Shown in pieces: positions 6,286 to 61,392 of a stretch of DNA of 64,000 nt. The translations under genes and the position numbers were made by a program. The notes beneath the pieces are model-generated. The model saw nothing but the letters and a program-made list of their open reading frames with translations. It searched no databases and was not told the DNA's origin. This stretch comes from Jeotgalicoccus saudimassiliensis (GTDB lineage Bacteria; Bacillota; Bacilli; Staphylococcales; Salinicoccaceae), in contig NZ_CCSE01000001.1 in NCBI RefSeq assembly GCF_000756715.1, positions 1,054,001 through 1,118,000 of the forward strand, given 5' to 3'. Each line of letters opens with the position of its first letter. The first letter of the stretch is position 1.

Positions 6286-6571
6286 GGTTGGATTACAACG
6301 GCGGATTGGTGTTGTCATTCGAGTGTGTCCGGTTTACAACGGCGGACGCACGTTGTCATTCGAGCCCTCCCGGTTCACAACGGCGGACGCACGTTGTCAT
6401 TCGAACACCACCGGTTCACAACGGCGAACCACCGTTGTCATTCCAGCACCACCGGTTCACAACGGTGGACGACCGTTGTCATTCAAACACCACCGGTTTA
6501 CAACGGCGGACGCACGTTGTCATTCGAGCACCACCGGTTCACAACGGTGGACGACCGTTGTAAACCAAACC
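6286..6571. repeat. Array A: 7 tandem 41-bp units with ACAACGG/CCGTTGT dyad
   Basis: Core dyads start at 6295, 6336, 6377, 6418, 6459, 6500 and 6541, exactly 41 bp apart. Each core is ACAACG-N9-CGTTGT (the seventh pair is often also matched), with linkers such as CATTCGAGCACCACCGGTTC. The ends form a longer inverted pair: 6285-6301 matches the reverse complement of 6555-6571 at 15 of 17 positions. The array lies between the terminator of the pfkA-pyk-lipoprotein unit and the citZ promoter, so it probably falls outside both transcripts. Three overlapping plus-strand reading frames here are open only because the unit lacks stop triplets. Confidence 0.95.
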
Positions 6572-6633
6572 TCCACCCGCCCCAACACATACATCCCGAC
6601 CAGCACAAACCAGTCCACAATCCGGTCCACAAA

Positions 6634-6680
6634 CAAAAAAACTCCCCCCAAAACCGCATTAAAGCAGTCCCGGGGGAGTT
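6634..6680 (-). terminator. Terminator after lipoprotein gene
   Basis: The stem AACTCCCCC/GGGGGAGTT, with a loop of about 22 nt, is followed on the minus strand by TTTTTTTG. It ends the pfkA-pyk-lipoprotein unit. Confidence 0.75.
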
Positions 6681-6702
6681 CATCCGCACTAATATTATTA
6701 TT

Positions 6703-7461
6703 TTATTCTTCCGGCATATCGCGCGGCTTTTCAATCATTTCAACATCATCGATGTTTGTGTAGTCGACTGTCGAGTGGATCGCAAGCTGCTCACCACCGC
6801 TGTCAACGTCTGCTGTCAGTTCGGATCCGGTAAATGTATATTCCGCATCGAAATAAAGCTGAATTGTACCGTTGACACTGTCGGCCGCTTCGAGCTGTTT
6901 GAGCGTTTCCTCATCTGCAAGTCCGCTTAACGCTGACGTGTCTTTAACGTTTATCGTTATGGCATAGCCTTCTTCGAGTTCGCTGACTTCGCCTTCAGGA
7001 TAGTTTTCAAGTGAAGCCACGATCGTCTCGTAGTCGCTGCCTTTGATATCCACTGTTTCTTCGGTCTCAACAATCTCGTTATCGGCGTACATAAAGTGAC
7101 CGCCTTCAACGATATAGTGAGTGACAATGTTGCCATTGTCGTTGACGGACAGTTTAAATTCGTTCTGTCCGCCGAATGTCATAATTGTACGAATCGTACT
7201 TTCGTCATCCGCACCTGTTATATTTAACGACTGCTGGGCGACGTAATTCGAAATACCTTCACTGTTCGCGACAGCATTGTCGATTAATTCCGATGACGCT
7301 ATGTCGCTGTTGCCGCCCTGGTTTTCACCTGCGGTTTCTGCCGTATTTTCTTCAGCCGCTTCTTCTGTCCCGTTTTCTTCCGATGCGGGTTCTTCAGAAC
7401 TGTCGGAGCATGCTGATAAAATTAATATACTTCCGAATAATGCAGCGAGCGTTTTTTTCAT
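6703..7461 (-). CDS. Secreted lipoprotein, DUF6612-like
   Basis: A predicted 252-residue lipoprotein. MKKTLAALFGSILILSAC is a signal peptide with lipobox LSAC, so Cys18 should be lipidated. An acidic, Glu/Asn-rich linker (residues ~20-50) precedes a globular region of alternating beta-strand character resembling the LolA/LppX-like fold of DUF6612 proteins (family assignment by resemblance). A longer reading frame begins at 7470 with a GTG, but that GTG is part of the GAGGTG ribosome site; the ATG at 7461 is 6 nt after it. It starts 18 nt downstream of pyk, so it is probably co-transcribed with the glycolytic genes. Ligand and role are unknown. Confidence 0.8.
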   Translation of the reverse strand: MKKTLAALFGSILILSACSDSSEEPASEENGTEEAAEENTAETAGENQGGNSDIASSELIDNAVANSEGISNYVAQQSLNITGADDESTIRTIMTFGGQNEFKLSVNDNGNIVTHYIVEGGHFMYADNEIVETEETVDIKGSDYETIVASLENYPEGEVSELEEGYAITINVKDTSALSGLADEETLKQLEAADSVNGTIQLYFDAEYTFTGSELTADVDSGGEQLAIHSTVDYTNIDDVEMIEKPRDMPEE

Positions 7462-7479
7462 CCAACACACCTCAAATCT

Positions 7480-9240
7480 TTATAGCACGTGCGCATGTCC
7501 GCTGTATACGACGCTCTGCTCACTGTCGATTGTGATGAGCATGTTGTCTTTCAGCACTTCAAGCGCTTCTTGTGCACCGACGATTGTCGGGAGTTCCAGG
7601 TTTAATCCGACGATTGCACCCTGGCTTGTCAGTCCGCCTTCTACAGTGATCAGTCCTGCTGCTTTAATTAACAGCGGTGTCATCAGTGCGTCAACTGACT
7701 GGACAACGACGATTTTATCCGTCGTATCTTTGCCCTGAAGTTCTTCATAGTTTTTAGCAGTCACGACTTCGCCTACCGCAGTTTTGCTGCCGATACCCTG
7801 TGCTTTAATTAAAGTATCCCCGACAACGTGCAGCTTCATTAAGTTCGTCGTACCTGCGCGGCCCGCCGGTACACCTGCAGTTATAATAATCAAGTCACCT
7901 TCATTGGCATACCCTTTTTCAAGCGTCGCCATAACCGAAGTATTTAACAGCTCATCCGTATCTCTCTCTGCTGCCTTGACGATTGGATTCACGCCCCAGA
8001 CAAGGTTAAGCTGACGTGCAACGTGACCGTAAGGCGTTACCGCTACGATATTTGCGTGCGGACGGTATTTCGCGATCATTCTCGCAGTATGTCCGCTTTC
8101 TGTAGCTGCAACGATTGCTTTACACTGTAGGTTCAGCGCAGTATGTGCCACAGATACACCGATTGCAGTTACCATATTCGTCTGTGTCGATTTCGTTCTG
8201 TCCGATAATAATTTCTTGTAGTCCTGGGCTTCTTCAGCCGACACTGCGATTTTCGCCATCGTCTGAACCGCTTCAACCGGATATGCTCCCGCAGCAGTTT
8301 CACCGCTCAGCATAACCGCGTCGGTACCGTCGTAGATTGCGTTCGCCACGTCACTCGCTTCGGCACGCGTACATCTCGGGTTCGTCTGCATGGAATCCAG
8401 CATCTGCGTTGCAGTAATAACCGGTTTACCAAGCAGGTTACATTTTCTGATTAATTCTTTCTGCATCATCGGCACTGTTTCCGGTGCCACTTCCACACCA
8501 AGGTCCCCGCGGGCAACCATCAGGCCGTCGGAAATTTTCAGGATATCATCGATGTTGTCGATACCTTCCTGGTTTTCAATTTTAGGAATGATTTTAATAT
8601 ATTCGCCTTCGTGTGCTTCGAGCAGTTCCCTGATTTCAAGAACATCCTCGGCACGTCTCACGAAACTTGCCGCGATAAAGTCCACACCCTGCTCGATACC
8701 GAACCTGACGTCATCTTTATCTTTATCAGTTAAACCTGGAAGCTTAACGCTGACACCCGGCACGTTTACGCCTTTTTTATTCTTCAGAAGACCGTTGTTT
8801 TTCACCGTCGTCGTAATGATGCCCGTGTCCTTGTTCAGTTCATCGATTTCCAGTTCCACAAGACCATCATCCAGAAGAATAAAGTCTCCCGGCTCAACGT
8901 CGTCGATCAGCCCCGTATAAGACACCGAAAAGCGGTCTTTGTTACCAAGCACTTCAGTCATCGACACTTCAATCTGCTGGCCGCGGACAAGTTCAACCTG
9001 ACCGTCTTCCATAGAGTGGGTTCTGATTTCAGGCCCTTTTGTATCCAGCAGAATACCAACTGTTTTGCCTAAACGCTCCGAAACTTTTCTGATTGCGTCG
9101 ATACGCGCCTGATGTTCCGCGTGGTCACCGTGTGAAAAGTTTAAACGCGCAACGTTCATGCCCGCCATCATCAGTTTTTCCAGTATCTCTTCCGATTCTG
9201 AAGCCGGTCCTATTGTACATACAATCTTTGTATTTCTCAT
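7480..9240 (-). CDS. pyk: Pyruvate kinase with C-terminal PEP-utilising-type domain
   Basis: A 586-residue enzyme that makes pyruvate and ATP from PEP and ADP. The N-terminus [14 protein letters not shown], the segment [11 protein letters not shown] and the motif [20 protein letters not shown] identify the catalytic core. The extra C-terminal domain (about residues 475-586, with [21 protein letters not shown]) is the extension typical of Bacillus and Staphylococcus enzymes and explains the length. The start was set at the ATG at 9240, behind AGGAGGAAC, not at the upstream frame extension to 9315. It lies 13 nt after pfkA and forms one unit with it. Confidence 0.97.
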
Positions 9241-9253
9241 TCTTCTGTTCCTC

Positions 9254-10324
<1,071 letters not shown>

Positions 10325-10365
10325 TTAAGATTGATAAACGGGCTCGCGGGTACATGGAATTCTCT

Positions 10366-10576
10366 CTTTGCCACACTAACGCCTCTACTGTGACAATGAA
10401 CCGCGCTCTTTGGCACACTAACGCCTCTACTGTGACAATGAACCGCGCTCTTTGCCACACTAACGCCTCTACTGTGACAATGAACCGCGCTCTTTGGCAC
10501 ACTAACGCCTCTACTGTGACAATGAACCACGCTCTTTGGCACACTAACGCCTCTACTGTGACAATGAACCACGCTC
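10366..10576. repeat. Array B: 5 tandem 42-bp units
   Basis: CACACTAAC recurs at 10372, 10414, 10456, 10498 and 10540, a 42-bp period. Each unit holds an imperfect dyad with 11-nt arms, TTGGCACACTA and TACTGTGACAA (9 of 11 pair), around ACGCCTC. It shares GGCACACTAA with array H but not the ACAACGG core. It fills the gap between the accA terminator and the pfkA start. Because 42 is divisible by 3, both strands show open frames with a repeating 14-residue peptide; these have no credible ribosome site and are not called genes. Confidence 0.93.
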
Positions 10577-10621
10577 ACAGACACACCATGCTTACTAAAC
10601 CAAAAAACTAAACCAAAACCC

Positions 10622-10658
10622 AAAAAACGCACCCGCCTCCATACGGGCCGGTGCGTTT
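10622..10658 (-). terminator. Terminator after accA
   Basis: The stem AAACGCACC/GGTGCGTTT encloses a second GGCCCGTATGGAGGCGGG fold and is followed on the minus strand by TTTTTTGGG. Confidence 0.8.
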
Positions 10659-10668
10659 CATAATACGA

Positions 10669-11616
10669 TTATTCACTAAACTGGCCGATCGCCATGTATT
10701 TGTCATAACGCTGATCGACAAGTGCGTCGCCGTCCATCGGCACGAGTTCCGCCAGTGCGTCCTGAAGCACTTTATCGGTTTCGTTAAAGACGAATGTCTT
10801 ATCGTGGTGTGCGCCTCCGGCCGGCTCAACGATTGTGCCGTCGCTCACACCGAGTTCCAGCAGGTCCGCCGCCGTAATTTTCAGCGATTCCGCTGCAATT
10901 TCTTTCAGCGAAGCATCTTTAAACAGTATACTTGCCGCGCCTTCCGGTGAAATGACCGAGTAAGTTGCGTTTTCAAGCATATAAAGTTTGTTGCATACGC
11001 CGAGTGCGAGCGCGCCGCCTGAACCGCCTTCACCGATAACGATGCTGATTACAGGCACAGTGAGCCCTGCCATTTCAACAAGGTTGCGGGCGATCGATTC
11101 ACTCTGACCGCGTTCTTCCGCCGCTTTACCGGGGTATGCACCTTTCGTATCGATAAAGCATATTACCGGACGGTTGAATTTTTCCGCCTGTTTCATCAGA
11201 CGCAGTGCTTTTCTGTAGCCGTCAGGGTGCGCCATACCGAAGTTGCGCGCGATGTTGTCTTTCGTATCCATCCCGCGCTGGTTGCCGATAACAGTCACCG
11301 GACGGCCGCGGAACATCGCGATGCCGCCGATAATTGCATTATCGTCCGAGTATGCACGGTCGCCTTTAAACTCGATAAACTCATCGAATAAAGCTGCGAT
11401 ATATTCTTTTGAAGTCGGGCGTTTTATGTAGCGTGCAATTTCCACACGCTGCCACGGTGTCAGTTGTGAGTATACTTCTTCTTTTTTATCCTTCACTTTT
11501 CTCTCCAGAAAGCTGATTTCAGTCGTCAGATCCAGCTTGTTTTTATGGGCATATTTTTCAAGCTCTTTAATTTTATTTTCCAGTTCAGTAACCGGTTTTT
11601 CAAATTCAAATACCAT
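10669..11616 (-). CDS. accA: Acetyl-CoA carboxylase, carboxyltransferase alpha subunit
   Basis: A 315-residue subunit that, with AccD, transfers the carboxyl group from biotin to acetyl-CoA to form malonyl-CoA for fatty acid synthesis. Crotonase-like motifs include [16 protein letters not shown] and the oxyanion-region segment [12 protein letters not shown]. The N-terminal helical region (residues ~1-55, charged, [16 protein letters not shown]) is typical. Its ATG follows the accD stop after only two nucleotides, so the subunits are translationally coupled. Confidence 0.97.
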
Positions 11617-11618
11617 AA

Positions 11619-12470
11619 TTACACAACCTCTTTATGCATCTTTAAAATCGTGCCTAAATAGCGTTTCATGTTCACTCTGTTGACGACATCATCAAGCTGC
11701 CCGTGCTTGAGTAAAAATTCCGCCGTCTGGAAATCATCCGGCAGTTTTTCCTTAATTGTTTCTTCGATGACGCGGCGTCCGGCAAACCCGATTAACGCGC
11801 CTGTTTCAGCCAGGTTAATATCACCGACAGAGGCGAATGATGCGGATACCCCGCCTGTCGTCGGGTTTGTCATGTACGCGATATATAATAATCCCGCTTT
11901 GCTGTGTCTTTCGATTGCCACGCTGACTTTTGCCATCTGCATTAACGATAAAATCCCTTCCTGCATGCGGGCACCGCCGCTTGCTGTGAAGACGATAACC
12001 GGCAGACGGTGTTCTGTCGCATACTGGAACGTACGTGCGAGTTTTTCACCCAGTGCCGAACCCATGCTTCCCATACGGAATCTCGGGTCCATAATTGCAA
12101 CGACTGCTTCATTGCCCATTATTTTACCATGTGAGACAATCAGCGCCTCTTCAAGGCCCGTCTTTTCCTTATCGGATTTAAGCTTCTCTTCGTAGTTCGG
12201 GAAGTTCAGCGGGTTTACAGATGTCACACTTGTAAACAGTTCCGTGCCGCTGTCGATATCGAGCAGTGCATCCATGCGGTCCGTGCTTATAATCGGCATG
12301 TGATGGTCGCAGTTTGAGCAGACGTTCAGACGTTTGTGCAGATCTTTCGAGTAAAGTATCTTTTTACAGCTCGGGCACTTCGTCATAATCGTTTCCTGTT
12401 TTTCAGTCCCGCTCTCTGATTTTTCATCACTTGCTTTTTTATTCAACTTAAAAAATATATCTTTTAACAT
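11619..12470 (-). CDS. accD: Acetyl-CoA carboxylase, carboxyltransferase beta subunit
   Basis: A 283-residue partner of AccA. A four-cysteine zinc ribbon is seen at Cys32, Cys35, Cys51 and Cys54 (CPSC...CSNC), followed by the crotonase-like fold with [11 protein letters not shown] and [14 protein letters not shown]. It lies 18 nt downstream of a GntR regulator and 2 nt upstream of accA. Start ATG at 12470 with GGGGTG upstream. Confidence 0.97.
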
Positions 12471-12488
12471 TTTTACACCCCATAAAAG

Positions 12489-12911: not shown

Positions 12912-12914
12912 GGC

Positions 12915-14150: not shown

Positions 14151-14218
14151 AATCAGTTCCTCCTATTAGTGGTCATACCACGGTATATTATCATTATATT
14201 TTTTAATTTACAACAGAT

Positions 14219-21586: not shown

Positions 21587-21708
21587 TCGACATTGTCAGT
21601 CAACTCAGTTTGAGTGACTATGTAGAAACGACACTGTCAGTCAACTCAGTTTGAATGACTATGTAGAAACGACACTGTCAGTCAACTCAGTTTGAATGAC
21701 AGTGTCGA
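21587..21708. repeat. Array C: 3 tandem 41-bp units
   Basis: GTCAGTCAACTCAGTTTGA recurs at 21595, 21636 and 21677, a 41-bp period. The family is unlike the others. Inside each unit AGTCA and TGACT face each other. The last unit closes a longer dyad, GACACTGTCA...TGACAGTGTC (10 of 10). The array ends form an inverted pair, TCGACATTGTCA (21587-21598) and the reverse complement of 21697-21708 (11 of 12). It fills the convergent gap between the unknown gene and ald. Confidence 0.92.
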
Positions 21709-24722: not shown

Positions 24723-24732
24723 AATTTCACCT

Positions 24733-24763
24733 GAAGAGGGTGTCTGTGGACGTCCTCTTTTTT
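24733..24763 (+). terminator. Terminator after flavin monooxygenase gene
   Basis: AGAGG and CCTCT arms around an inner TGTC/GAC fold are followed by TTTTTTT. The array begins 26 nt later. Confidence 0.7.
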
Positions 24764-24789
24764 GTGAGCTGGGTGCCGAAAACTCAGCC

Positions 24790-25107
24790 GGTGCACCTCG
24801 TCAACTCCACGAAGTACACCAAACCCAGCCGGTGCACCTCGTCAGTTCCGCGAAGTACACCAAACTCAGCCGGTGCACCTCGTCAGTTCCGCGAAGTACA
24901 CCAAAACGCACCGGTGCACCTCGTCAATTTCGCGAAGTACACCAAACTCAGCCGGTGCACCTCGTCAACTTCGCGAAGTACACCAAACCCAGCCGGTGCA
25001 CCTCGTCAGTTCCGCGAAGTACACCAAACTCAGCCGGTGCACCTCGTCAACTTCGCGAAGTACACCAAACCCAGCCGGTGCACCTCGTCAACTTCGCGAA
25101 GTACACC
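24790..25107. repeat. Array D: 8 tandem 41-bp units
   Basis: GGTGCACCTCG recurs at 24790, 24831, 24872, 24913, 24954, 24995, 25036 and 25077, a strict 41-bp period. Each unit holds a 31-bp imperfect dyad with 11-nt arms, GGTGCACCTCG and CGAAGTACACC (9 of 11 pair as inverted repeat). Linkers read AAACTCAGCC or AAACCCAGCC. It lies in a convergent gap with a terminator on each side, so it is probably hardly transcribed. Long open frames through it are artefacts of the stop-free unit. Confidence 0.94.
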
Positions 25108-25184
25108 AACCCCCGACAACCCCCAACAACCCCACACAAAACCCACCAACTCCGACAAACCACACCCGGGCTCTCCCGCCAAAT

Positions 25185-25215
25185 CAAAAACCCGCAGCAT
25201 TTTCATGCCACGGGT
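25185..25215 (-). terminator. Terminator after cysteine hydrolase gene
   Basis: The stem ACCCGTGGCAT/ATGCTGCGGGT (loop GAAA, on the minus strand) is followed by TTTTTG. Confidence 0.8.
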
Positions 25216-25217
25216 CC

Positions 25218-31401: not shown

Positions 31402-31785
31402 ATGACGATGAAATACGATCTGCATACGATAGCAAAAAGTACCCTGCGCCCGAGAAATCTTGCGCGAAACGGCAAAGCAGGCTACGTGGCAGCTGCCCTG
31501 TTAACAAAAGACGGCAACCTTTACACCGGCGTGTCGATTGACGTCGCCTGTTCGATGGGCTTTTGTGCCGAACACTCCGCAATCGCCGCCATGGTCACTG
31601 CGGGCGAAACACGTATAGCGGAAATCATTGCAGTCCACAGGGACGGCCGCGTGCTGCCTCCATGCGGGAGATGCCGTGAATTTATCGTGCAGATTCATAA
31701 TAAAAACTATGACTGCTGTGTGCATCTGCCGGATGAAAGAGTCGTAAAGCTGCGTGAACTCCTCCCCGAGCGATGGGACATGTAA
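31402..31785 (+). CDS. Cytidine deaminase-like protein (blasticidin-S-deaminase-like)
   Basis: A 127-residue zinc hydrolase. The zinc motif is GFCAEHSAIAAM (Cys plus catalytic Glu) with the second pair in PPCGRCREF. The pattern CAEHSAI/CGRCREF and the C-terminal VVKLRELLPERW resemble blasticidin-S deaminases more than housekeeping cytidine deaminases (CAERTAI, CGACRQ). The substrate may be a nucleoside or a nucleoside antibiotic. It lies downstream of the NAD kinase and ends before a terminator and array E. Confidence 0.85.
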   Translation: MTMKYDLHTIAKSTLRPRNLARNGKAGYVAAALLTKDGNLYTGVSIDVACSMGFCAEHSAIAAMVTAGETRIAEIIAVHRDGRVLPPCGRCREFIVQIHNKNYDCCVHLPDERVVKLRELLPERWDM

Positions 31786-31846: not shown

Positions 31847-31884
31847 GGATTTTGGGTGTCGATTGGCGTAATCGGGGGAGTCCC

Positions 31885-32284
31885 GGTTCACAACGGCGAA
31901 TCACCTTTGTCATTCCAGCTCCCCCGATTTACAACGGCGGATCACCGTTGTCATTCAAGCTCCCCCGGTTTACAACGGCGAATCACCGTTGTCATTCCAG
32001 CTCCCCCGGTTCACAACGGCGAATCACCGTTGTCATTCCAACTCCCCCGGTTCACAACGGCCGATCACCGTTGTCATTCAAGCTCCCCCGGTTCACAACG
32101 GCGGATCACCGTTGTCATTCCAACTCCCCCGGTTCACAACGGCGAATCACCGTTGTCATTCGGACACTCCTGGTTCACAACGGCGGATCACCGTTGTCAT
32201 TCGAGCTCCCCCGGTTCACAACGGCGGATCACCGTTGTCATTCAAGCTCCCCCGGTTTACAACGGCGAATCACCGTTGTCATTC
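31885..32284. repeat. Array E: 10 tandem 41-bp units, ACAACGG family
   Basis: Cores start at 31890, 31931, 31972, 32013, 32054, 32095, 32136, 32177, 32218 and 32259. The usual core is ACAACGGCGAATCACCGTTGT, a 7-bp inverted pair around seven bases; linkers are CATTC-(C/A)A(G/A)CTCCCCCGGTTC. It ends 14 bp from the stop codon of the minus-strand LysR gene, which has no other visible terminator, so this array may act as that gene's 3' end. Confidence 0.95.
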
Positions 32285-35010: not shown

Positions 35011-35025
35011 GTGATGGTGCCGGCC

Positions 35026-35466
35026 GGTTTACAACGGCGGACCACCGTTGTCATTCCAGCGCTCCCGGTTTACAACGGTGGACGCACGTTGTCATTCCAG
35101 CACCCCCGGTTCACAACGGTGGATGCACGTTGTCATTCCAGCACCCCCGGTTCACAACGGTGGATGCACGTTGTCATTCCAACACCCCCGGTTCACAACG
35201 GCGGACGACCGATGTCATTCCAGCACTCCCGGTTCACAACGGCAGACGCACGTTGTCATTCCAACACCCCCGGTTTACAACAGCGGACGCACGTTGTCAT
35301 TCCAACACCCCCGGTTCACAACAGCGGATCACCGTTGTCATTCCAACACCCCCGGTTCACAACGGCGGACGCACGTTGTCATTCCAACACTCCCGGTTCA
35401 CAACAGCAAACGCACGTTGTCATTCCAGCATCCCCGGTTCACAACGGTGGACCACCGTTGTAAACC
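35026..35466. repeat. Array F: 11 tandem 41-bp units, ACAACGG family
   Basis: Cores lie every 41 bp from 35031 to 35441. The usual form is ACAACGG(C/T)GGACGCACGTTGT; some units have ACAACAG. The ends are a perfect 12-bp inverted pair: GGTTTACAACGG at 35026-35037 and CCGTTGTAAACC at 35455-35466, so the last unit has a different right arm (AAACC) from the inner units (CATTCC). The array lies between two terminators in a convergent gap. Confidence 0.96.
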
Positions 35467-41097: not shown

Positions 41098-41538
41098 GGG
41101 TGACAACGGCGGGTTGGTGTTGTTAATCGGGACTGATCGATTCACAACGGGAAACCGCCGTTGTCATCCGGGACTGATCGATTCACAACGGGAAACCGCC
41201 GTTGTCATCCGGGGTGCGTCGGTTCACAACGGGGAAGCGCCGTTGTCAACCGGGGCCGATCGATTCACAACGGGCAATCACCGTTGTCAACCGGGACTGA
41301 TCGATTCACAACGGGCAATCACCGTTGTCAACCGGGACTGCTTGATTCACAACGGGGAACCGCCGTTGTCATCCGGGGTGCGTCGGTTCACAACGGGAAA
41401 CCGCCGTTGTCAACCGGGGCCGATCGATTCACAACGGGGAACCGCCGTTGTCATCCGGGGTGCGTCGATTCACAACGGGGAACCGCCGTTGTCAACCGGG
41501 GCCGATCGATTCACAACGGGGAACCGCCGTTGTCAACC
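41098..41538. repeat. Array G: 11 tandem 41-bp units, ACAACGG family
   Basis: Cores start every 41 bp from 41103 to 41513. The usual core is ACAACGGGGAACCGCCGTTGT. Linkers come in types: CATCCGGGGTGCGTCGGTTC and CAACCGGGGCCGATCGATTC alternate three times, which indicates duplication of 82-bp pairs. The outer ends are GGGTGACAACGG and, inverted, GGTTGACAACGG (11 of 12). The array sits between the rpsD and cold-shock-gene terminators in a convergent gap. Confidence 0.95.
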
Positions 41539-41577
41539 GACAGCTCACCTTCCCCACAGTCCTCCTCAATCATACAA

Positions 41578-41611
41578 AATAAAAAAGAGATACCCGGAGG
41601 TATCTCTTAAG
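41578..41611 (-). terminator. Terminator after cold-shock gene
   Basis: The stem AAGAGATACC/GGTATCTCTT is followed by TTTTTATT on the minus strand. Confidence 0.88.
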
Positions 41612-41625
41612 AATTTAACTATTTA

Positions 41626-41826
41626 TTAAACAGTTGCAACGTTGACAGCTTGTGGTCCGCGTTGTCCTTCTTCGATTTCGAAAGTAACTTTTTGACCTTC
41701 TTCTAAAGTTTTGTATCCTTCACCCTGGATTGCTGAGAAGTGTACGAATACGTCGTCTCCAGCTTCCTGCTCGATGAAACCAAAACCTTTTTCAGCGTTA
41801 AACCATTTTACAGTTCCTTCATTCAT
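41626..41826 (-). CDS. Cold-shock domain protein (CspA family)
   Basis: A 66-residue single-stranded nucleic-acid chaperone. RNP1 (KGFGFI) and RNP2 (VFVHF) are intact, from [18 protein letters not shown] to [10 protein letters not shown]. The ATG at 41826 lies 8 nt after AAGGAGG; the longer frame to 41853 has no ribosome site. A promoter about 120 nt upstream gives a long leader, as is common for csp mRNAs. Confidence 0.95.
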
Positions 41827-41945
41827 TGAAAAAACCTCCTTGTGCTCATGCACGTGTTATTTTTTGCAGTTTTAAACATTTAAAAGAGTTTTTTCAGTAA
41901 TATGAATAGAAACTATTTAAACTTTGACTTAAAAACTACATTCTT

Positions 41946-50274: not shown

Positions 50275-50275
50275 T

Positions 50276-51285: not shown

Positions 51286-51306
51286 GAGCTGTGCAAATAA
51301 AAATAC

Positions 51307-51345
51307 GAAGAGGTTCTTAGCCATACCCTCTTAAAAAAACTAAGA
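51307..51345 (+). ncRNA. PreQ1 class I riboswitch
   Basis: AGAGGTTCTTAGC, ACCCTCT and AAAAAAACTAAG occur in the order and spacing of the class I aptamer: stem AGAGG/CCTCT, the C-containing loop, then the A-rich strand that closes the pseudoknot. A terminator follows directly, so preQ1 should stop transcription of queF and the transporter gene. Confidence 0.93.
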
Positions 51346-51352
51346 CACACTG

Positions 51353-51382
51353 ACACGTGCCTTCGTTGGCGCGTGTTTTTTT
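51353..51382 (+). terminator. Riboswitch expression-platform terminator
   Basis: ACACGTGCC/GGCGCGTGT (loop TTCGTT) is followed by TTTTTTT, 8 nt after the aptamer and 20 nt before queF. Confidence 0.88.
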
Positions 51383-51402
51383 ATTAAAGGAGGAACTTTA
51401 CA

Positions 51403-51891: not shown

Positions 51892-51937
51892 GTGGGACGG
51901 CTAAGAATTTCTTCCATTTTAAACTGGAGGGAATACA

Positions 51938-52585: not shown

Positions 52586-52587
52586 TG

Positions 52588-53090
52588 GTCTGGTGTGCCA
52601 TTCTCAATTCCACAATGGCACACCGGAGGCGCTACCGTGCCATTCTCATTTCCACAATGGCACACCGGAGGCGCTACCGTGCCACTCTCACCTCCACAAC
52701 GGCACACTAAAGAGCCCACTGTGCCATTCTCATTTCCACAATGGCACACTAAAGAGCCCACCGTGCCGTTCTCATTTCCACAATGGCACACTAAAGAGCC
52801 CACCGCGCCATTCTCACTCCCACAATGGCACACTAAAGAGCCCACCGTGCCATTCTCACTCCCACAATGGCACACTAAAGAGCCCACCGTGCCATTCTCA
52901 ATCCCACAATGGCACACTAAAGAGCCCACCGTGCCATTCTCAATCCCACAATGGCACACTAAAGAACCCACCGTGCCGTTCTCAATCCCACAATGGCACA
53001 CTAAAGAACCCACCGCGCCGTTCTCAATCCCACAATGGCACACTAAAGAACCCACCGCGCCATTCTCAATCCCACAACGGCACAACAGAC
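52588..53090. repeat. Array H: 12 tandem 42-bp sites, GGCACACTAA family
   Basis: ATGGCAC/ACGGCAC sites recur every 42 bp from 52615 to 53077. AATGGCAC and GTGCCATT face each other across 15 bases. The outer ends form an inverted pair: GTCTGGTGTGCCATT (52588-52602) and the reverse complement of 53076-53090, 13 of 15. Early units carry ACCGGAGGCGCT instead of ACTAAAGAGCCC. It starts 3 bp after the transporter stop codon and ends before the permease terminator. Both strands are open in several frames; not called genes. Confidence 0.95.
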
Positions 53091-53116
53091 AACAAACCAG
53101 CCACCCATCCAATACA

Positions 53117-53153
53117 AATAAAAAGCCCATACGTCCAAAGACGTATGGGCTCA
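53117..53153 (-). terminator. Terminator after Bce-type permease gene
   Basis: The stem AGCCCATACGTC/GACGTATGGGCT is followed by TTTTTATTTG on the minus strand. Confidence 0.9.
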
Positions 53154-53168
53154 TACCTATGTTTAATC

Positions 53169-55851: not shown

Positions 55852-55924
55852 AAATGATTCCTCCTGTTTTTCTGATTAACTACAGTTTACACTCTGCCGA
55901 ACGGGATATCGTTTGATTCAGCGA

Positions 55925-55965
55925 ACAAAAAACACTGCAAAGTGACATTTCTGTCACTTCACAGT
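55925..55965 (-). terminator. Terminator overlapping the kinase stop codon
   Basis: CACTG-AAGTGACA and its complement form a long stem (loop ~4 nt) that includes the TGA at 55954, followed by TTTTTTG on the minus strand. Confidence 0.85.
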
Positions 55966-56952
55966 GATTTTCGTAAATTTATTCGCCCGGCTGAAGGTTA
56001 ACATTATCGTCGTATACTCTCCGTAACGGGACGTAACACCGATATTCACACCAAGCACACCACATACTTCCTTAGTTAAATACAGACCCATGCCTGTCGA
56101 CTGCTCATCGTCGTGATCACTCGTCGAAGTAAAACCGGAGTCGAATATCCGGCCGATGTCTTTTTGTTTTATGCCTCTCCCGTAATCGGTAATGGTGAGA
56201 GTCATCTGTCCATTTACAACTTCCCCGTTAATTAAAATATCATTATTTCCCGAGTACTTTACGCTGTTCGTAATAATCTGATCCAGCACGAACTGCATCC
56301 ATTTTCTGTCCGTATAAACGACTGGTTCCGACAGATTGATATCAAAGCCGATATTTTTCTGCATGCAGATTTCGCGCAGTTTTTTAACAGAAGTGTTTAA
56401 CAGCTCCGCGAGATTAATCTCTTCTATATATAAATCATTTTTAATGTTCGGCATGCGTTGTAAATACAGCACTTCATTCAGCATACTGTTCAGGCGCGTC
56501 CATTCCACACTGATTTTCCTGCCCTCTTCTCCGTGAAGGTCGTCAATCATCAGTTTCATCGTCGTCACCGGCATTTTCATATCATGTATAAACCGCGTCA
56601 GTTCATCGAGGTTTTCTCTTGTCCGCTGCGATTCTTTATCGAGCTCCTCCTGGTGCTTAACCCGGAGTTCATCGAGTTTTTCATATATAATCCGTTGATT
56701 CGGTGTCTCCCCGGCCGGCATGCCGACGACATCATCCAGCGATTCGAGACTTTGAAAGCTGCTGTTAAACTTTCTTTTTCTAATGACATCCCAAATAATA
56801 TAGACGACAAAAATCAGCAGATTAAAAAGAGAAATATAAATCACAGAGATATTCGGAATGCTGCTGTCAATCAGACCAATCAGCAGAATAACCGCATTAA
56901 AAGCGGCAAAGAGCAGAAAGACGGGAATATTCTCTTTAACGTACATATTCAT
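55954..56952 (-). CDS. Intramembrane-sensing histidine kinase, BceS/GraS-like
   Basis: A 332-residue kinase with two N-terminal spans (~8-28 and ~37-56) separated by only about eight residues, so it has almost no extracellular sensor and should read the ABC transporter instead. His123 lies in RFIHDMKMPVTTM; the ATPase boxes are DQIITNSVKYS, DYGRGIKQKDIGRIF and GMGLYL. Its ATG abuts the regulator's stop codon; an ATG two codons later (56946) has better spacing to GAGGAG and may be the true start. Confidence 0.93.
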   Translation of the reverse strand: MNMYVKENIPVFLLFAAFNAVILLIGLIDSSIPNISVIYISLFNLLIFVVYIIWDVIRKRKFNSSFQSLESLDDVVGMPAGETPNQRIIYEKLDELRVKHQEELDKESQRTRENLDELTRFIHDMKMPVTTMKLMIDDLHGEEGRKISVEWTRLNSMLNEVLYLQRMPNIKNDLYIEEINLAELLNTSVKKLREICMQKNIGFDINLSEPVVYTDRKWMQFVLDQIITNSVKYSGNNDILINGEVVNGQMTLTITDYGRGIKQKDIGRIFDSGFTSTSDHDDEQSTGMGLYLTKEVCGVLGVNIGVTSRYGEYTTIMLTFSRANKFTKITVK

Positions 56953-57627
56953 CTACTCCTCTAAAATGTAGCCGATGCCTGTTTTCGTCACTATCGCGTG
57001 ACTCAAACCGATTGATTCAAGCTTTTTACGCAGTCTGTTGACGTTAACTGTCAGTGTATTGTCACTGATAAACTTCGAATCATCCCACAGCGCTTCGATG
57101 ATTTCTGTCCGGGAGACCGTCTCTCCCCTGTGCTGCGCCAGTATCGACAGAATATGGGATTCATTTTTCGTCAGCTCGATAATGCTGTCGTTTAATGTGA
57201 CCGTCAGCTTTTTAAAATCGACTACCGCTTCCCTGAATTTCAGCACATTAATTTCCGTGTGCTGATACTCATACGTGCGCCTTAACAGCGCCTGTACTTT
57301 CGCGTTCAGCACTTCAAAGTTAAACGGCTTCTGCACGTAATCATCCGCGCCCATCTGCATACTCATCACCATATCTGCCGGGTGGTCTCTCGACGACAGA
57401 AATATAATCGGCACGCTGGATACATTCCGAATCATGCGGCACCAGTAAAATCCGTCGAATTTCGGCAGCGTAATATCGACGATCACGAGCTCCGGGTCAA
57501 TCTTTATAAAGTCGCTCATCACATCGTTAAAATCCGTTACACCGGACGCAATTATATTCCATTCTTTAAACCGCGCTGCCAGTTCATCCAGCAGCACCGG
57601 ATCGTCTTCTATTATCAGCAGTTTCAT
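56953..57627 (-). CDS. Response regulator, BceR/GraR-like (OmpR family)
   Basis: A 224-residue regulator. The receiver has Asp8-Asp9 and phospho-acceptor Asp51 in VIVDITLPKFDGFYWCR, with the Lys of DDYVQKPF. The winged-helix DNA-binding domain spans ~130-224 (LSILAQHRGETVSRTEIIEALWD). DITLPKFDGFYWCR and SMQMGADDYVQKPFN are close to GraR/BceR, regulators of peptide-antibiotic resistance. It follows DUF418 by 11 nt and abuts the kinase gene. Confidence 0.94.
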   Translation of the reverse strand: MKLLIIEDDPVLLDELAARFKEWNIIASGVTDFNDVMSDFIKIDPELVIVDITLPKFDGFYWCRMIRNVSSVPIIFLSSRDHPADMVMSMQMGADDYVQKPFNFEVLNAKVQALLRRTYEYQHTEINVLKFREAVVDFKKLTVTLNDSIIELTKNESHILSILAQHRGETVSRTEIIEALWDDSKFISDNTLTVNVNRLRKKLESIGLSHAIVTKTGIGYILEE

Positions 57628-57638
57628 CTAAATACCCC

Positions 57639-58844
57639 TTAACGTTTTCTGATTGGCATCACATTTAAATAAGTAAAACAGCGCCATATCCACTCGAGCG
57701 GTCCGTACGCGAAAAACTTCATCCATACAGTACTCAGTATAATCTGTAAGATGAACACCCCGAGTGCAACCGGTACAAACCATATCGCATTAATGCTGCC
57801 GAATAATCCGCCGATGTAAAAAATACCGAGCATAATCACTGTCTGTCCGATGTAATTCGTCAGCGCCATCTGACCGACCGGCTGCAGCAAACTTACGAAA
57901 CTTGGAATCTTCAGGAAAATCAAGGCAAGCGCTGCGACATATCCGAGCGACATCAATGGCCCGCCTACTGTACTTGACAGCATGGCTAACAAACTGTAAA
58001 CCACGTCGTTAAACTGATATGTCGTTAAATAGCCTGTAAAGATTTTCACCGGCAGCCCGATGCCGATACCGATTACCGTGACTTTTCTTAACAGCGGAAT
58101 GTGGCTGCTCAAATTAGTAAACCACCCTTTTTGTCCCGCATACAGTCCGATTAAAAACATCGCCAGTACATTCGGTATAACAAATAGAGCACCTGATGCA
58201 GAAATCCCGAGAATCGTTGCATTCATGCCGACGATATCAGCATACGAACCGTTTAAAACAGTCTCTGTCATATTCAGTGTATAGACAAAGCCCTGCGATT
58301 CAAGATCCATGCCTGCAGTATACTTTTCCATCATAAATGTTGCTGCAGACATTAAAACGACCATAACCGATGTCACGATGAGCAGAATAACCGCAATAAT
58401 TAAATTGACTTTCGGTTTGAATTTGTAAAATAACAAAAGGAATATCCCGGTAACCGCGTACGTCCATAAAATATCACCGTACCATAACAAAATTCCGTGC
58501 ATCAGTCCGAACACGAGAAGCAGTCCGAGCCTTCTTAAAAACAGTGCCGACACCGACTGCGTTTTCTTTTCCGCACGCGATAAAAATATAAAGAAGCCGA
58601 GACCGAACAAAAATGAAAACATCGTATAAAAATTAGTCGTCACAAATGTATTGATAAAAAATAATGACAGCTCATTCCAGAATCCGGTATAAATTTCCGT
58701 ACGCGTGCCACTGAAACTGTCATCGAGATCAGGACCGGCAAATGACATGATGTTCATCATCAGTATGCCGAGCAGTGCAAATCCGCGGATGCCGTCTATT
58801 TCAAAAACTCTTTTGTTAAACTCTATCGGATTATTCTCTCCCAT
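57639..58844 (-). CDS. DUF418 membrane protein
   Basis: A 401-residue protein with about nine or ten spans. The N-terminal block IDGIRGFALLGILMMNIMSF and C-terminal GPLEWIWRCFTYL are the DUF418 signatures (a family related to YeiB and some acyltransferases). Function is unknown. It is first in a unit with the Bce-like regulator and kinase, so a role in the same envelope or peptide response is possible. ATG at 58844 behind GGAGGT. Confidence 0.9.
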   Translation of the reverse strand: MGENNPIEFNKRVFEIDGIRGFALLGILMMNIMSFAGPDLDDSFSGTRTEIYTGFWNELSLFFINTFVTTNFYTMFSFLFGLGFFIFLSRAEKKTQSVSALFLRRLGLLLVFGLMHGILLWYGDILWTYAVTGIFLLLFYKFKPKVNLIIAVILLIVTSVMVVLMSAATFMMEKYTAGMDLESQGFVYTLNMTETVLNGSYADIVGMNATILGISASGALFVIPNVLAMFLIGLYAGQKGWFTNLSSHIPLLRKVTVIGIGIGLPVKIFTGYLTTYQFNDVVYSLLAMLSSTVGGPLMSLGYVAALALIFLKIPSFVSLLQPVGQMALTNYIGQTVIMLGIFYIGGLFGSINAIWFVPVALGVFILQIILSTVWMKFFAYGPLEWIWRCFTYLNVMPIRKR

Positions 58845-58861
58845 AACTCTACCTCCATTTA

Positions 58862-58881
58862 GGATAAGTATACTTCTATCC
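58862..58881. promoter_or_regulatory. Candidate operator/promoter before DUF418-regulator-kinase unit
   Basis: GGATAAGTATACTTCTATCC is a near-palindrome (GGATA/TATCC arms around AAGTATACTT). On the minus strand it contains TATACT, a -10-like box. It lies 18 bp from the DUF418 start, so it would overlap the promoter. Confidence 0.4.
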
Positions 58882-58961
58882 GAATAAAATTAAAACTGAA
58901 GACAGCGGCGGGTGATCACGGGAACTTTATTGAGTATACGGACACACCCGCCCGCCGCATA

Positions 58962-58998
58962 CAAAAAAACCGGAAACCCCCTTTGGGATTTCCGGTTT
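58962..58998 (-). terminator. Terminator after 89-residue membrane protein gene
   Basis: The stem AAACCGGAAA-CCC/GGG-TTTCCGGTTT is followed by TTTTG on the minus strand. Confidence 0.88.
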
Positions 58999-59003
58999 CT
59001 GCA

Positions 59004-59273
59004 TCAAAACTGCATAAACGACGGCGGTTCGCCTGTAATGTAAGTATATAAGTAGTAAAAACAAATACCCAGTACAGGAACAACGATGACGACGAATAAA
59101 AACAGTTTCAAAAACTTCGTTAAAATTTTATATAAAATCATGATGGCGATAATAATCAGCCCGCCATACAGTATGTTCTGCCATGTGTAATCCAGAATGT
59201 AAAATCCGGTGAAATTGATTACAAATATTGACGCGACGCTGGCTAAAATTATCATTATTAAACGCATTAACAC
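59004..59273 (-). CDS. Small membrane protein of unknown function
   Basis: About 89 residues with three hydrophobic segments (IMIILASVASIFVINF, ILYGGLIIIAIMILY, LFLFVVIVVPVLGICFYYL) and a short tail ending PPSFMQF. I do not recognise the family. The likely start is GTG at 59273, 8 nt after GGAG; an ATG at 59297 has no ribosome site and an ATG at 59267 is also possible. Single gene between the MFS gene and the DUF418 unit, with its own terminator. Confidence 0.65.
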   Translation of the reverse strand: MLMRLIMIILASVASIFVINFTGFYILDYTWQNILYGGLIIIAIMILYKILTKFLKLFLFVVIVVPVLGICFYYLYTYITGEPPSFMQF

Positions 59274-59332
59274 ATTAACCGCTCCTTTTATCGTCATTTA
59301 ATTATAATTCATTCACCGCATTATTCAAAATT

Positions 59333-60475
59333 TTACACCGTCTGCGGTTTAATTTGTGTTGCTGCAATCAGACCGCACAGCACGATAACAAATCCAAGCC
59401 ACGGTCCGTAGCTGATATCGAAATTGCTGATAAACAGCCCGCCGATTACCGCACCGATACCAATTCCAAGGTTAAGCGCCGACATGTTCCAGCTGAATAC
59501 GTTCGAGCTTGAGCCTTCGACGTTTTCAACCAGTCCGCCCTGCACTGCAGGGGATGTTGCCCACTGGAATAAGCTCCACACAAACATATTGATATAGAAC
59601 AGTACAGGTGTACCATACAGGAACGGCATAACTGCAAGACTCACAAGGAACATCGCCATCATCAGCATAACCGTTTTTTTCGGTCCGATTTTATCGATCA
59701 GGTTACCGCCGAGATACGTTCCTGTCATACCGCCGATACCGGTAATTAATAATGCGAACGACACGTTTTCAAGCGTGAAGCCGTGTGATGTCATTAACGG
59801 TGAAATGTAACCGAGGATAATGTAGTTACCCACGAGCACCGACAGCGTAACTGCGATGTAGAGCGCCACATTTTTCTTCGATTTAATTCTGCTCTTCTGC
59901 ACACCTTCAGGTGTATTGTCGACAAGTGCTTCCGAACGTACGAACATCAGCACACCGAGTCCGACCAGGATCGCAAGAATGATAACGAGGCCGAAAATAA
60001 TTCTCCAGCCGAACTGCGCGCCGATAATTGTACCAATCGGTATCCCGAACACGTTTGCAGCACTGAAGCCCATGTAGACAAGTGCAAGCATTTTACCGCG
60101 GACATGCGGTTCCGACAGCACTACTGTCATATCGAGTACTTTAACGATAAAGACCGCTGCAGCCATCGCTGTGATTACACGTCCGAGTGACAGTATCATA
60201 AACGAGTTGGCGAGACCAAATACAACGTTACCGATTATAAATACAACAAGTGAAATCAATACAACCAGTTTCGGCTGCATGTTTTCAGCTGCACGGATTA
60301 ATATCGGTCCAAACAAAGCAAAGCTGACTGCGTAAACAGTAATCAGCTGTCCGGTCAGAGCATGACTTATACCGAGATCGTCACTCATCAGCTCCAGAAT
60401 TCCGGAAACGATTAATTCCATCATACCAAGCAGGAAAATACCTACTGTAAAGGTAATGATCAGTTTTTTATTCAT
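59333..60475 (-). CDS. MFS transporter (DHA1-type exporter)
   Basis: A 380-residue membrane protein with 12 predicted spans. The MFS DHA1 pattern is seen in LLGMMELIVSGILELMSDDLGIS at the start, the loop after span 2 (LIRAAENMQPKL) and motif C in span 5 (MGFSAANVFGIPIGTIIG). Such proteins usually export drugs, sugars or amino acids; substrate unknown. ATG at 60475 behind GAGGAA. No adjacent MarR or TetR regulator. Confidence 0.9.
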   Translation of the reverse strand: MNKKLIITFTVGIFLLGMMELIVSGILELMSDDLGISHALTGQLITVYAVSFALFGPILIRAAENMQPKLVVLISLVVFIIGNVVFGLANSFMILSLGRVITAMAAAVFIVKVLDMTVVLSEPHVRGKMLALVYMGFSAANVFGIPIGTIIGAQFGWRIIFGLVIILAILVGLGVLMFVRSEALVDNTPEGVQKSRIKSKKNVALYIAVTLSVLVGNYIILGYISPLMTSHGFTLENVSFALLITGIGGMTGTYLGGNLIDKIGPKKTVMLMMAMFLVSLAVMPFLYGTPVLFYINMFVWSLFQWATSPAVQGGLVENVEGSSSNVFSWNMSALNLGIGIGAVIGGLFISNFDISYGPWLGFVIVLCGLIAATQIKPQTV

Positions 60476-60591
60476 ATGTATTCCTCACATTTAAGTTAAT
60501 ATAGTTTTAAAAGGCAACTTGATTATTATACAATTATTAGAGAGACGTTTCAAATGACAATTTGTGTCTAATTTATATATGAGGTGTAAAT

Positions 60592-61083
60592 ATGAGGAGA
60601 TTAATGTTTTTAGTGCCGTTTATCGTATTATTCCTCGGTGCGTGCAGCAGTGAATCCGAAGAAAACTATACGCAGATGCTCGGTGCTTTCGAGCGAAACG
60701 ACAGTGAGCTGAATACGAAACTCGATGAAACGGCGAAAAACATAAGTAAAGAGTCCAACCGGGACAAAGCTCTTCAAAGTATTAATGACGATATTATTCC
60801 AAGTATCGGCGATTTCCGCCAGACCATTAATAATTACACGCTGACAGATGAAAATCATCTGGAAGTTCAGGATGCGATGACTGATTACCTCGACCAGGTA
60901 GAAGACTTGATGGTGCTGTACAGTAACCTTAATGAAGATTTCTTTTTCGTTAATCCGCTCGGTGATGATTCCATTGATGAAAGATTAAACACTGCGCTCG
61001 ACAACATCAGCGCTCAGGAAAAAGAAATGCATGAAGCGAAAGAAAAAGTCAATCAGCTGATTGGAGACAATCAGGCAGAATAA
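60592..61083 (+). CDS. Predicted lipoprotein, helical, unknown function
   Basis: A 163-residue lipoprotein with signal peptide MRRLMFLVPFIVLFLGAC (lipobox LGAC, Cys18). The mature part is highly charged and helical (EENYTQMLGAFERNDSELN to EKEMHEAKEKVNQLIG) and may form a coiled-coil bundle. I do not recognise the family. ATG at 60592 behind GAGGTG. Divergent from the MFS gene; it runs into array I 33 bp after its stop codon without its own terminator. Confidence 0.78.
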   Translation: MRRLMFLVPFIVLFLGACSSESEENYTQMLGAFERNDSELNTKLDETAKNISKESNRDKALQSINDDIIPSIGDFRQTINNYTLTDENHLEVQDAMTDYLDQVEDLMVLYSNLNEDFFFVNPLGDDSIDERLNTALDNISAQEKEMHEAKEKVNQLIGDNQAE

Positions 61084-61115
61084 CCGGTGTGTGTTGGTTG
61101 GGGTTGGATGGGGTT

Positions 61116-61392
61116 GGTTCACAACGGCCAGCCGCCGTTGTGAATCGATAAGACCCGGATGACAACGGCCAATCACCGTTGTGAACCGGCAGACCCCGAA
61201 TGACAACGGGACATCGCCGTTGTGAACCGACAGACCCCGAATGACAACGGGACATCACTGTTGTGAACCGGCAGACCCCGAATGACAACGGGACATCACT
61301 GTTGTGAACCGACAGACCCCGGATGACAACGGGACATCACCGTTGTGAACCGACAGACCCCGGATGACAACGGCACACCGCCGTTGTCATCC
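61116..61392. repeat. Array I: 7 tandem 41-bp units, ACAACGG family, reverse orientation
   Basis: Cores start at 61121, 61162, 61203, 61244, 61285, 61326 and 61367. The core is ACAACGGGACATC(A/G)C(C/T)GTTGT. Inner units read GGATGAC-core-GTGAACC, the reverse of arrays A, E, F and G (GGTTCAC-core-GTCATTC). The first unit is flanked by GGTTCAC/GTGAATC and the last by GGATGAC/GTCATCC, so each end unit is nearly symmetric. It fills the convergent gap before the dipeptidase terminator. Confidence 0.95.

Follow-up and report, generated by a model that had tools for sequence, protein, structure and literature searches.

Intergenic arrays of dyad-bearing 41- and 42-bp tandem units in Jeotgalicoccus saudimassiliensis and its relatives: possible helically phased binding platforms

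Nine intergenic arrays of 41- or 42-bp tandem units lie in the 64-kb stretch of the Jeotgalicoccus saudimassiliensis chromosome analysed here (the window), and the arms, symmetry, spacing and place of such arrays are kept. Relatives keep the spacing despite changed letters, which suggests an undescribed DNA-organising system, and we put the probability that they act as helically phased binding platforms, in the manner of BIMEs or sopC, at slightly under one half (roughly 0.48). Tandem Repeats Finder (TRF) recovered all nine dyad-bearing arrays of the initial annotation, seven with period 41 and two with period 42, and its copy numbers agree with the unit counts given there (7, 5, 3, 8, 10, 11, 11, 12 and 7) once partial edge units are counted. 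The arrays, together with the borders of one of them, are as follows (F1 denotes the family with the core ACAACGG-N7-CCGTTGT).

Array A, 6311..6561, no strand: 41-bp units of the F1 family, 6.1 copies (TRF, sequence); a minus-strand gene on either side; left flank G/T-rich, right flank C/A-rich.
Array B, 10364..10576, no strand: 42-bp units, 5.1 copies (TRF, sequence); half-sites CTACTGTGACAATGA / TTAGTGTGCCAAAGA about N7 (half-site match P = 0.007); a minus-strand gene on either side.
Array C, 21588..21700, no strand: 41-bp units, 2.8 copies (TRF, sequence, superfamily alignment); long dyad family (TTGACTGACA..); convergent gene pair.
Array D, 24780..25113, no strand: 41-bp units of the F2 family, half-site GCCGGTGCACCTCGTC, 8.1 copies (TRF, sequence); convergent gene pair.
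Left border of array D (example), 24723..24779, plus strand: the terminator-like hairpin belonging to the plus-strand gene is followed by G/T-rich sequence that runs into the array.
Right border of array D (example), 25114..25217, minus strand: C/A-rich on the plus strand, and so G/T-rich on the minus strand when read towards the array; beyond it the minus-strand gene ends.
Array E, 31882..32284, no strand: 41-bp units of the F1 family, 9.8 copies (TRF); convergent gene pair, the called gene on the left being separated from the array by an uncalled ORF on the plus strand (31402-31785).
Array F, 35024..35461, no strand: 41-bp units of the F1 family, 10.7 copies (TRF, unit table); flanked by convergent genes.
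Array G, 41119..41539, no strand: 41-bp units of the F1 family, 10.3 copies (TRF); convergent gene pair; a relative (G007) has a 42-bp array in the orthologous gap.
Array H, 52595..53084, no strand: 42-bp units, 11.7 copies (TRF, unit table); dyad GTGCCATT-N11-AATGGCAC (dyad P = 0.005; half-site match P = 0.086); flanked by convergent genes.
Array I, 61135..61395, no strand: 41-bp units of the F1 family, 6.4 copies (TRF); F1 orientation reversed relative to arrays A, E, F and G; convergent gene pair.

Most of the 41/42-bp arrays form one superfamily, in which a unit comprises two ~15-bp inverted half-sites about a 7-bp centre of variable sequence (consensus TTTGGATGACAACGT), which together span 37 bp and leave a gap of 4 or 5 bp to the next unit. 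The half-site centres alternate ~22 and ~19 bp apart, near two helical turns, a spacing that would place them on roughly one face of the DNA. Taken as a class, the dyads are real, with arm scores averaging 6.35 vs 4.51 in shuffled units, but P ≤ 0.05 is reached singly in only 22 of the 48 tested arrays. One degenerate profile is common to both half-sites, with a correlation of 0.75 at a single centre (maximum over 2000 column permutations, 0.51) and of 0.67 among the 16 of 21 representatives that are unlike F1, a symmetry that free strand choice during alignment has possibly inflated. Two results bear on it independently, namely the agreement of left and right arms within units, which exceeds that given by the profile (199 of 357 cells vs 143 ± 9), and a held-out test in which the best dyad fell at N7 in seven of nine period-42 arrays (P 0.007–0.086), though five of them are from this genome and look like one family. 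When whole arrays were clustered by single-linkage BLAST, 59 of the 84 fell together; since repeats inflate such scores, unit-level identities were used instead. The "at least four" sequence families first reported are mostly diverged members of one superfamily.

Per-site variation within arrays is 0.035 in the arms and 0.105 outside them, the arms being the less variable part in 42 of the 48 arrays (P = 1e-8, with array L064 kept in the analysis though indels scramble its consensus). Variation in the arms at a third of that in the rest of the unit would favour the binding sites that the initial annotation had proposed. At the same time, numerous diverged variants coexist in one genome, and the two arms of a unit change together. 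Such a pattern is not predicted for a single protein with a fixed specificity, but it is for hairpins or for template switching at quasi-palindromes.

In our sample of this genome (844 kb, 38.5% of the total), 36 of the 38 tandem arrays scoring ≥100 have a period of 41, 42 or 51. The sample projects to ~83 arrays genome-wide, and the "hundreds" extrapolated earlier were too many. The window, which was chosen for its arrays, is unusually dense, with nine arrays in 64 kb vs 27 in 780 kb (Poisson P = 5e-4). Neither are the arrays an artefact of the window, as they occur elsewhere in this genome and in at least eight other sampled genomes. Across this genome, the sampled relatives and one named Salinicoccus locus, 78 of the 82 arrays scoring ≥90 have period 41 (n = 59), 42 (n = 9) or 51 (n = 10); other periods in relatives are 50, 39 (2.2 copies) and 92 (2.0 copies), and a genome from another family (G025) has three period-61 arrays. 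For Salinicoccus halodurans, a passage of the genome report counts 58 tandem repeats (PMC4667468). Two of 11 period-51 arrays and none of the three period-61 arrays match the 41/42 profile at P ≤ 0.05, and both kinds fall in clusters apart from the 41/42 arrays, so that there are apparently separate sets near four, five and six helical turns. These periods are close to whole turns, but 41 bp corresponds to 10.25 bp per turn, not 10.5, and the phasing argument depends on few separate sets.

With ≤1 mismatch allowed, the F1 motif CACAACGG-N7-CCGTTGT matches the genome 204 times forward and 176 times in reverse, partly counted twice because the motif is near-palindromic, and the pattern read backwards has no match. 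Inside arrays lie 311 of the 313 matches in the sample, and the remaining two are one solitary unit read on either strand; with this one lone F1 unit off arrays in 844 kb, a reading as single-site operators was rejected.

Orthologous gaps hold on to arrays and to their period, often with a different sequence. Among orthologous pairs of convergent gaps, eight have an array in both members, six in one and 20 in neither (P = 9e-4), and the corresponding counts for tandem gaps are 4, 4 and 137 (P = 1e-5); array retention at orthologous sites exceeds chance. The arrays sit at gene 3' ends, half of them between convergent genes (37 convergent, 36 tandem, one divergent and four at stretch edges), against a background of 125 convergent, 618 tandem and 166 divergent gaps. 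By a word-based measure, 13 of 17 arrays are oriented along the leading strand (P = 0.049), a bias that is only suggestive and hinges on the placement of origin and terminus; an automated orientation test (8 of 17) is unreliable because near-palindromic units align on either strand. G/T-rich flanks point into the arrays from each side. Within 45 bp of arrays in convergent gaps of this genome, flank G+T is 0.74–0.78, compared with 0.48–0.58 in array-free convergent gaps; it is 0.65–0.69 on the promoter side of tandem-gap arrays, a side from which no called gene is read in the direction of the array, and weaker in relatives (0.52–0.68). Relative to array-free gaps, the flanks mainly gain G and lose A, rather than gaining T at the expense of C.

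The main rival to binding platforms is a neutral or selfish palindromic satellite, its units multiplied through slippage, through unequal recombination or through template switching that hairpins drive, which retains the second alternative offered initially (amplification with a fixed unit length) and which we regard as possible, if doubtful. Arms would then seem conserved because only hairpin-forming units amplify and template switching corrects mismatches, and the position at gene 3' ends would reflect selection against arrays anywhere else; such a location can stem from selection against promoter insertions. Strong homogenisation with higher-order repeats of 82, 123 and 164 bp speaks for a satellite, as do the arm agreement within units, the near absence of F1 units off arrays, the raised G+C within arrays (0.56 vs 0.42 in this genome) and the single divergent setting among 74 classified arrays. 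A satellite alone leaves unexplained the periods of 41/42, 51 and 61, the sharing of orthologous gaps beyond independence and the G/T-rich flanks. The last of these would follow if the arrays were break-and-repair hot spots, at which palindromes extrude and undergo SbcCD-like cutting, repair drives array turnover, and resected 3' single-stranded tails are damaged or selected to give the inward-pointing G/T-rich strands. The high G+T in convergent gaps, and also on the promoter side in tandem gaps, suits this explanation, whereas the lack of Chi enrichment (the Chi motif AGCGG occurs twice in 71 flanks), the shift mainly from A to G and the weaker signal in relatives make it improbable.

The location of the arrays would also agree with a role in RNA, as 3'-terminal mRNA stem-loops by which transcripts are stabilised or terminated, and so would a modest folding excess of the units (mean z −1.4 and −1.7 on the two strands), terminator-like sites inside 7 of 78 arrays and the 36 of 95 facing 3' ends at which no terminator was detected before the array. 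Such RNA-level elements are nevertheless quite improbable in our estimation: a terminator-like hairpin precedes the array at 59 of the 95 ends, which would put many arrays beyond the transcript, arm changes are compensated in just 9 of 185 cases, G-T vs A-C changes on the sense strand of tandem arrays (27 to 18) show no clear RNA bias, and helical spacing has no bearing on RNA. The half-site–N7–half-site layout with its variable centre could indicate tandem sites of a site-specific (tyrosine) recombinase, and the lox/FRT layout resembles 13–15-bp arms about a 7-bp centre. We hold this to be very improbable, since two of the three PF00589 matches in this genome recur in every one of the nine genus genomes, presumably as XerC and XerD, the third, not clearly common to all, has counterparts of similar score and size in only some of them, and such sites would not be expected to carry diverged arms in a single genome. 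Spreading as REP/BIME elements by a RAYT transposase, which extragenic 3'-end palindromes with alternating half-sites would recall, is largely refuted and carries next to no weight, as Y1_Tnp (PF01797, RAYT) had no match in eight of the nine genus genomes, including this one.

Tandem copying by reverse transcriptase was rejected with no match above the family cut-off in the nine genus genomes (a weak sub-cut-off match in G008 has internal stops). A mobile-element origin was rejected too: one and a half F1 units, searched as an exact pattern, are absent from viral_contigs, and array E has no match in plasmids or phages. The chromosomal parS consensus has four one-mismatch matches (three places) at 1.46–1.52 Mb, away from the arrays. 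WhiA was considered as a candidate for its GACAC motif. In the sources searched, the arrays correspond to no known annotated repeat: no Rfam family matches them (the two Rfam hits in the window overlap no array), and no description was found among the literature matches listed, in a search with most subscription journals outside its range. The sole match in the searched portion of a REP survey (PMC12306157) is a table line of Bacillota species, without Staphylococcaceae.

We return to helically phased binding platforms, and to the putative chromosome-organising sites proposed at the outset, which arm constraint, the shared half-site profile, near-helical periods and orthologous retention favour. 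A putative dimeric DNA-binding protein of loose specificity would bind 2 to 16 neighbouring units, and the bound units would make up a compact nucleoprotein block, located in a convergent gap or past a gene 3' end, that by analogy could halt transcriptional leakage, hold torsion or serve as a nucleoid anchor, roles proposed for BIMEs and known for sopC. Unequal recombination or slippage would keep the units of one array alike while the sequence drifts, and selection would account for the retained arms, symmetry, spacing and place. A more far-reaching version, which we consider unlikely, is an undescribed chromosome-structuring system that inherits geometry and not sequence, with dyads at four, five or six helical turns, fixed intergenic addresses, a putative structure- or shape-reading protein and letters that turn over by concerted evolution, much as those of centromeric satellites in eukaryotes do. 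Should the binding-platform reading be true, the arrays would be a bacterial counterpart of satellite DNA, with spacing and symmetry conserved as the sequence turns over, and would open two questions to testing, in a group that is presumably culturable and harmless: which protein reads helically phased dyads loosely, and whether blocks of this kind are needed where convergent genes end. Even a neutral satellite with a period near whole helical turns would give new insight into the origin of bacterial tandem repeats.

Among known systems, bacterial minisatellites (VNTRs) are likewise intergenic, with near-identical tandem units of varying copy number; the arrays differ in their shared dyad profile, common period and orthologous-gap retention over many loci. 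STAR elements of Staphylococcus aureus are intergenic repeats from the same bacterial order, with shorter units. To our knowledge, the nearest match in unit length, copy number and layout is sopC. On the F plasmid, sopC (parS_F) has twelve 43-bp tandem repeats in which lie ten 16-bp inverted repeats that ParB binds (PMC6238139). A centromere of the sopC type comes with a cognate ParB-type protein and a linked par operon. The likeness is one of layout only, tandem units with inverted repeats, in that the array units measure 41/42 bp, not 43, their half-sites are longer and enclose N7, and sopC is one plasmid locus as against ~83 projected chromosomal arrays. REPs, in the relevant sections of PMC3733652, are extragenic palindromes with many copies per genome (single, paired or tandemly reiterated) and a GTAG or CGTC terminal tetranucleotide, those of E. 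coli being gyrase targets at ORF 3' ends, and BIMEs are described in a passage of PMC2817692 as regularly spaced REPs of alternating orientation. Binding of gyrase, IHF or Pol I is a further trait of REP/BIME elements. Unlike these, the arrays keep a period of 41, 42 or 51, have almost no F1 singles and many diverged variants per genome, and occur here without a RAYT. The arrays differ from CRISPR, whose identical repeats and unique spacers contrast with the whole-unit repetition in the arrays compared unit by unit. Like the REP/BIME elements of Escherichia coli and Pseudomonas, the arrays are extragenic palindromic units with alternating half-sites, mostly at gene 3' ends.

Tandem Repeats Finder recovered nine arrays in the window, with periods of 41 or 42, at the positions where the initial annotation had placed them. 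The genome of Jeotgalicoccus saudimassiliensis (G000) is one contig of 2,191,063 bases, in which the window spans 1,054,001-1,118,000; for one protein encoded there, the closest named hits were from Salinicoccus, at 66-67% identity. Besides the window we sampled 39 further stretches, each 20 kb long, which brought the total to 844 kb, or 38.5% of the contig. Among the 38 tandem arrays scoring at least 100 in this sample, the period was 41 in 30, 42 in five and 51 in one, the two others having periods of 95 (2.6 copies) and 202 (2.0 copies); projected from the sample, G000 would hold ~83 arrays of 2 to 16 copies. The F1 family (41-bp units with an ACAACGG-N7-CCGTTGT core; arrays A, E, F, G and I of the window) gave 313 matches in the sample, all within arrays except for the two in one solitary unit, so the F1 units are no ordinary operators. 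The exceptional features of the sampled stretches (L numbers) of G000 are:

L011 8019-8057 (G000 ~228,020): solitary F1 unit, 63 bp 3' of a gene end; the sole F1 copy beyond arrays in 844 kb
L015 13950-14356: 202-bp duplication, score at least 100
L028 14636-14883: 95-bp AT-rich repeat, score at least 100

Array G+C was 0.56 vs 0.42 in the G000 sample, and 0.48 vs 0.36-0.46 in the relatives. Arrays were scarcer close to the origin region, with 3 in the 220 kb sampled no more than 300 kb away vs 33 in the other 624 kb (P = 0.013); this 300-kb limit was picked post hoc, with the data already seen. The origin itself was set at ~1.55 Mb, a placement based on the dnaA gene (1.607 Mb), the parS-like sites (1.46-1.52 Mb) and the change in GC skew. 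This skew flips sign near 0.92 Mb and at 1.48-1.6 Mb, and the replichores it implies, of ~0.6 and 1.6 Mb, would be unusually unequal or else a product of misassembly.

Like arrays were present in stretches of eight relatives, seven of them congeneric (G001, G002, G003, sampled by one stretch only, G004, G006, with one such array in its sample, G007 and G008) and one, G010, of another genus. Together with G000 and the named Salinicoccus locus L036 (2.0 copies), these yielded 82 arrays with a score of at least 90, of which 78 had a period of 41 (59), 42 (9) or 51 (10); the other four were the 202 and 95 of G000 and periods of 18 and 60 within G006 genes. No array was found in 33 kb of G012 or in 12 kb of Salinicoccus locus L037, and the 3.8 kb sampled from G009 held no G or C and was hence uninformative. 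An N run lies within a 41-bp array of G002 (L110 6246-6341), which means that draft genomes may misstate the length of arrays. A second genome sample, with a score cut-off of at least 80, gave a 41-bp array of 7.8 copies in G024, which also carries long repeats of periods 276 and 282 and low-complexity repeats read as periods 18, 24, 30, 36 and 42; one period-51 and one period-50 array in G018; a 39-bp array (2.2 copies) in G016; a 92-bp array (2.0 copies) in G017; and low-complexity repeats of periods 12 and 36 in G014, a relative within the family of G000. As controls, ~127 kb from families f3 and f4 contained zero arrays near 41, 42, 51 or 61, these families having weak repeats of 15, 24 and 33, and 13 named non-Salinicoccaceae loci contained one array scoring at least 90, with period 113. 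The F1 motif was present in 8 of 40 genomes, namely seven of the nine of the genus, including G000, and, with a single match, G025. The latter, of a different family, carries three arrays of 61 bp (six helical turns):

L140 16407-16577: 61-bp array
L171 526-802: 61-bp array
L171 12325-12542: 61-bp array

When consensus units of 60 period-41 arrays were compared with one another and with shuffled controls, 377 pairs had at least 23 of 41 matches where 3.5 were expected, and chaining by unit identity joined 55 of the 60 arrays at this threshold and 44 at ≥24 matches. Alignment of 21 representatives revealed two inverted half-sites with one common consensus (TTTGGATGACAACGT, centre of 7 bases), whose positional correlation at one centre was 0.754 (highest value among 2000 column permutations, 0.506); for the 16 representatives unlike F1 it was 0.668. 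The left and right arms (the half-sites of each unit) agreed within the unit in 199 of 357 cases vs 143 ± 9 predicted from the profiles, the excess lying mainly 6 to 16 bases off centre. A half-site profile built without the period-42 arrays found its best dyad at the 7-base centre (N7) in seven of nine of them (P 0.007 to 0.086), five of these seven being from G000 and apparently one family; one of the other two had P = 0.007 with a 21-base centre, and one had no match (P = 0.48). At P ≤ 0.05 the profile was matched by 2 of 11 period-51 and 0 of 3 period-61 arrays, and because of these few matches both were treated as separate sets, compared with each other by BLAST clustering only.

Among arrays of four or more units whose indels did not exceed 1% (48 in all), per-site variation was 0.035 in the arms, as delimited on the consensus, and 0.105 in the rest of the unit, the arms being less variable in 42 of the 48 (Wilcoxon P = 1e-8). 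Taken singly, just 22 of the 48 had a significant dyad against a null of shuffled single bases, and compensated arm changes within arrays were rare (9/185). Between genomes, 339 distinct conserved neighbour pairs from the sampled stretches had an array in both gaps in 12 cases, in one in 10 and in neither in 317. For orthologous gaps of at least 50 bp, the numbers with arrays in both, one and none were 8, 6 and 20 when convergent (Fisher P = 9e-4) and 4, 4 and 137 when tandem (P = 1e-5), P values that are too small since 8 loci account for all 12 pairs, which are thus not independent; divergent gaps had arrays in 0 of 25. The period was equal in 11 of the 12 both-array pairs (ten 41-41, one 51-51) and 41 vs 42 in the remaining one. 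By eye, some loci had one unit family in the genomes compared (L018/G001/G003, L055/G004), and others had units with no recognisable likeness (array D, 24780-25113, F2 family, vs G001; L052 vs G008; G001 vs G002 twice). Adjacent arrays in one gap had unlike sequences and equal period (G001 L089, G002 L106, G003 L133).

Arrays lay between 37 convergent, 36 tandem and 1 divergent gene pairs, with 4 at stretch edges, as judged by a simple purpose-made gene caller that missed at least one plausible window ORF (31402-31785); background gaps of at least 50 bp were 125 convergent, 618 tandem and 166 divergent. An array occupied 20 of 59 convergent gaps in the G000 sample. A terminator-like hairpin preceded the array at 59 of 95 array-facing gene ends (median gap 34 bp), and a terminator-like site fell inside 7 of 78 arrays. 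The inward-pointing strand was G/T-rich over ~45 bp on either side of arrays, with G+T of 0.74-0.78 in convergent gaps of G000 and, in tandem gaps, 0.69-0.79 on the gene-end side and 0.65-0.69 on the other; array-free gap ends (0-60 bp) had 0.48-0.60, and the flanks in relatives were lower, at 0.52-0.68. Resected ends are one possibility for what lies behind these flanks. No array of the window had an Rfam match over cut-off, and two such matches were recorded in the window:

41581-41928, minus strand: cspA thermoregulator
51304-51349, plus strand: PreQ1 riboswitch

RAYT-type spreading was rejected, as a RAYT-type transposase (tied to REP/BIME elements, with a Y1_Tnp domain) is absent from G000. 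Among the nine genus genomes, Y1_Tnp matches occurred in G006 alone, as fragments at eight places, several at contig ends, and none of the nine had a reverse transcriptase over cut-off. Array E (31882-32284, F1 family, 9.8 copies) had no match in plasmids or phages, and an exact F1 pattern had none in viral contigs.

Judged from sequence, the retention of arms, symmetry, period and address despite drifting letters speaks for a function exerted by the DNA as a double strand, which in its simplest form would have the dyads read on one helix face by a binding protein. A serious rival is that the arrays are a neutral, self-correcting palindromic satellite, because the two arms within a unit change in concert and many variants occur within one genome. 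On present evidence the arrays belong to neither BIMEs nor sopC; for a function in double-stranded DNA, these two would be the best parallels. As described in PMC6238139, sopC repeats a 43-bp unit twelve times and includes ten 16-bp inverted repeats.
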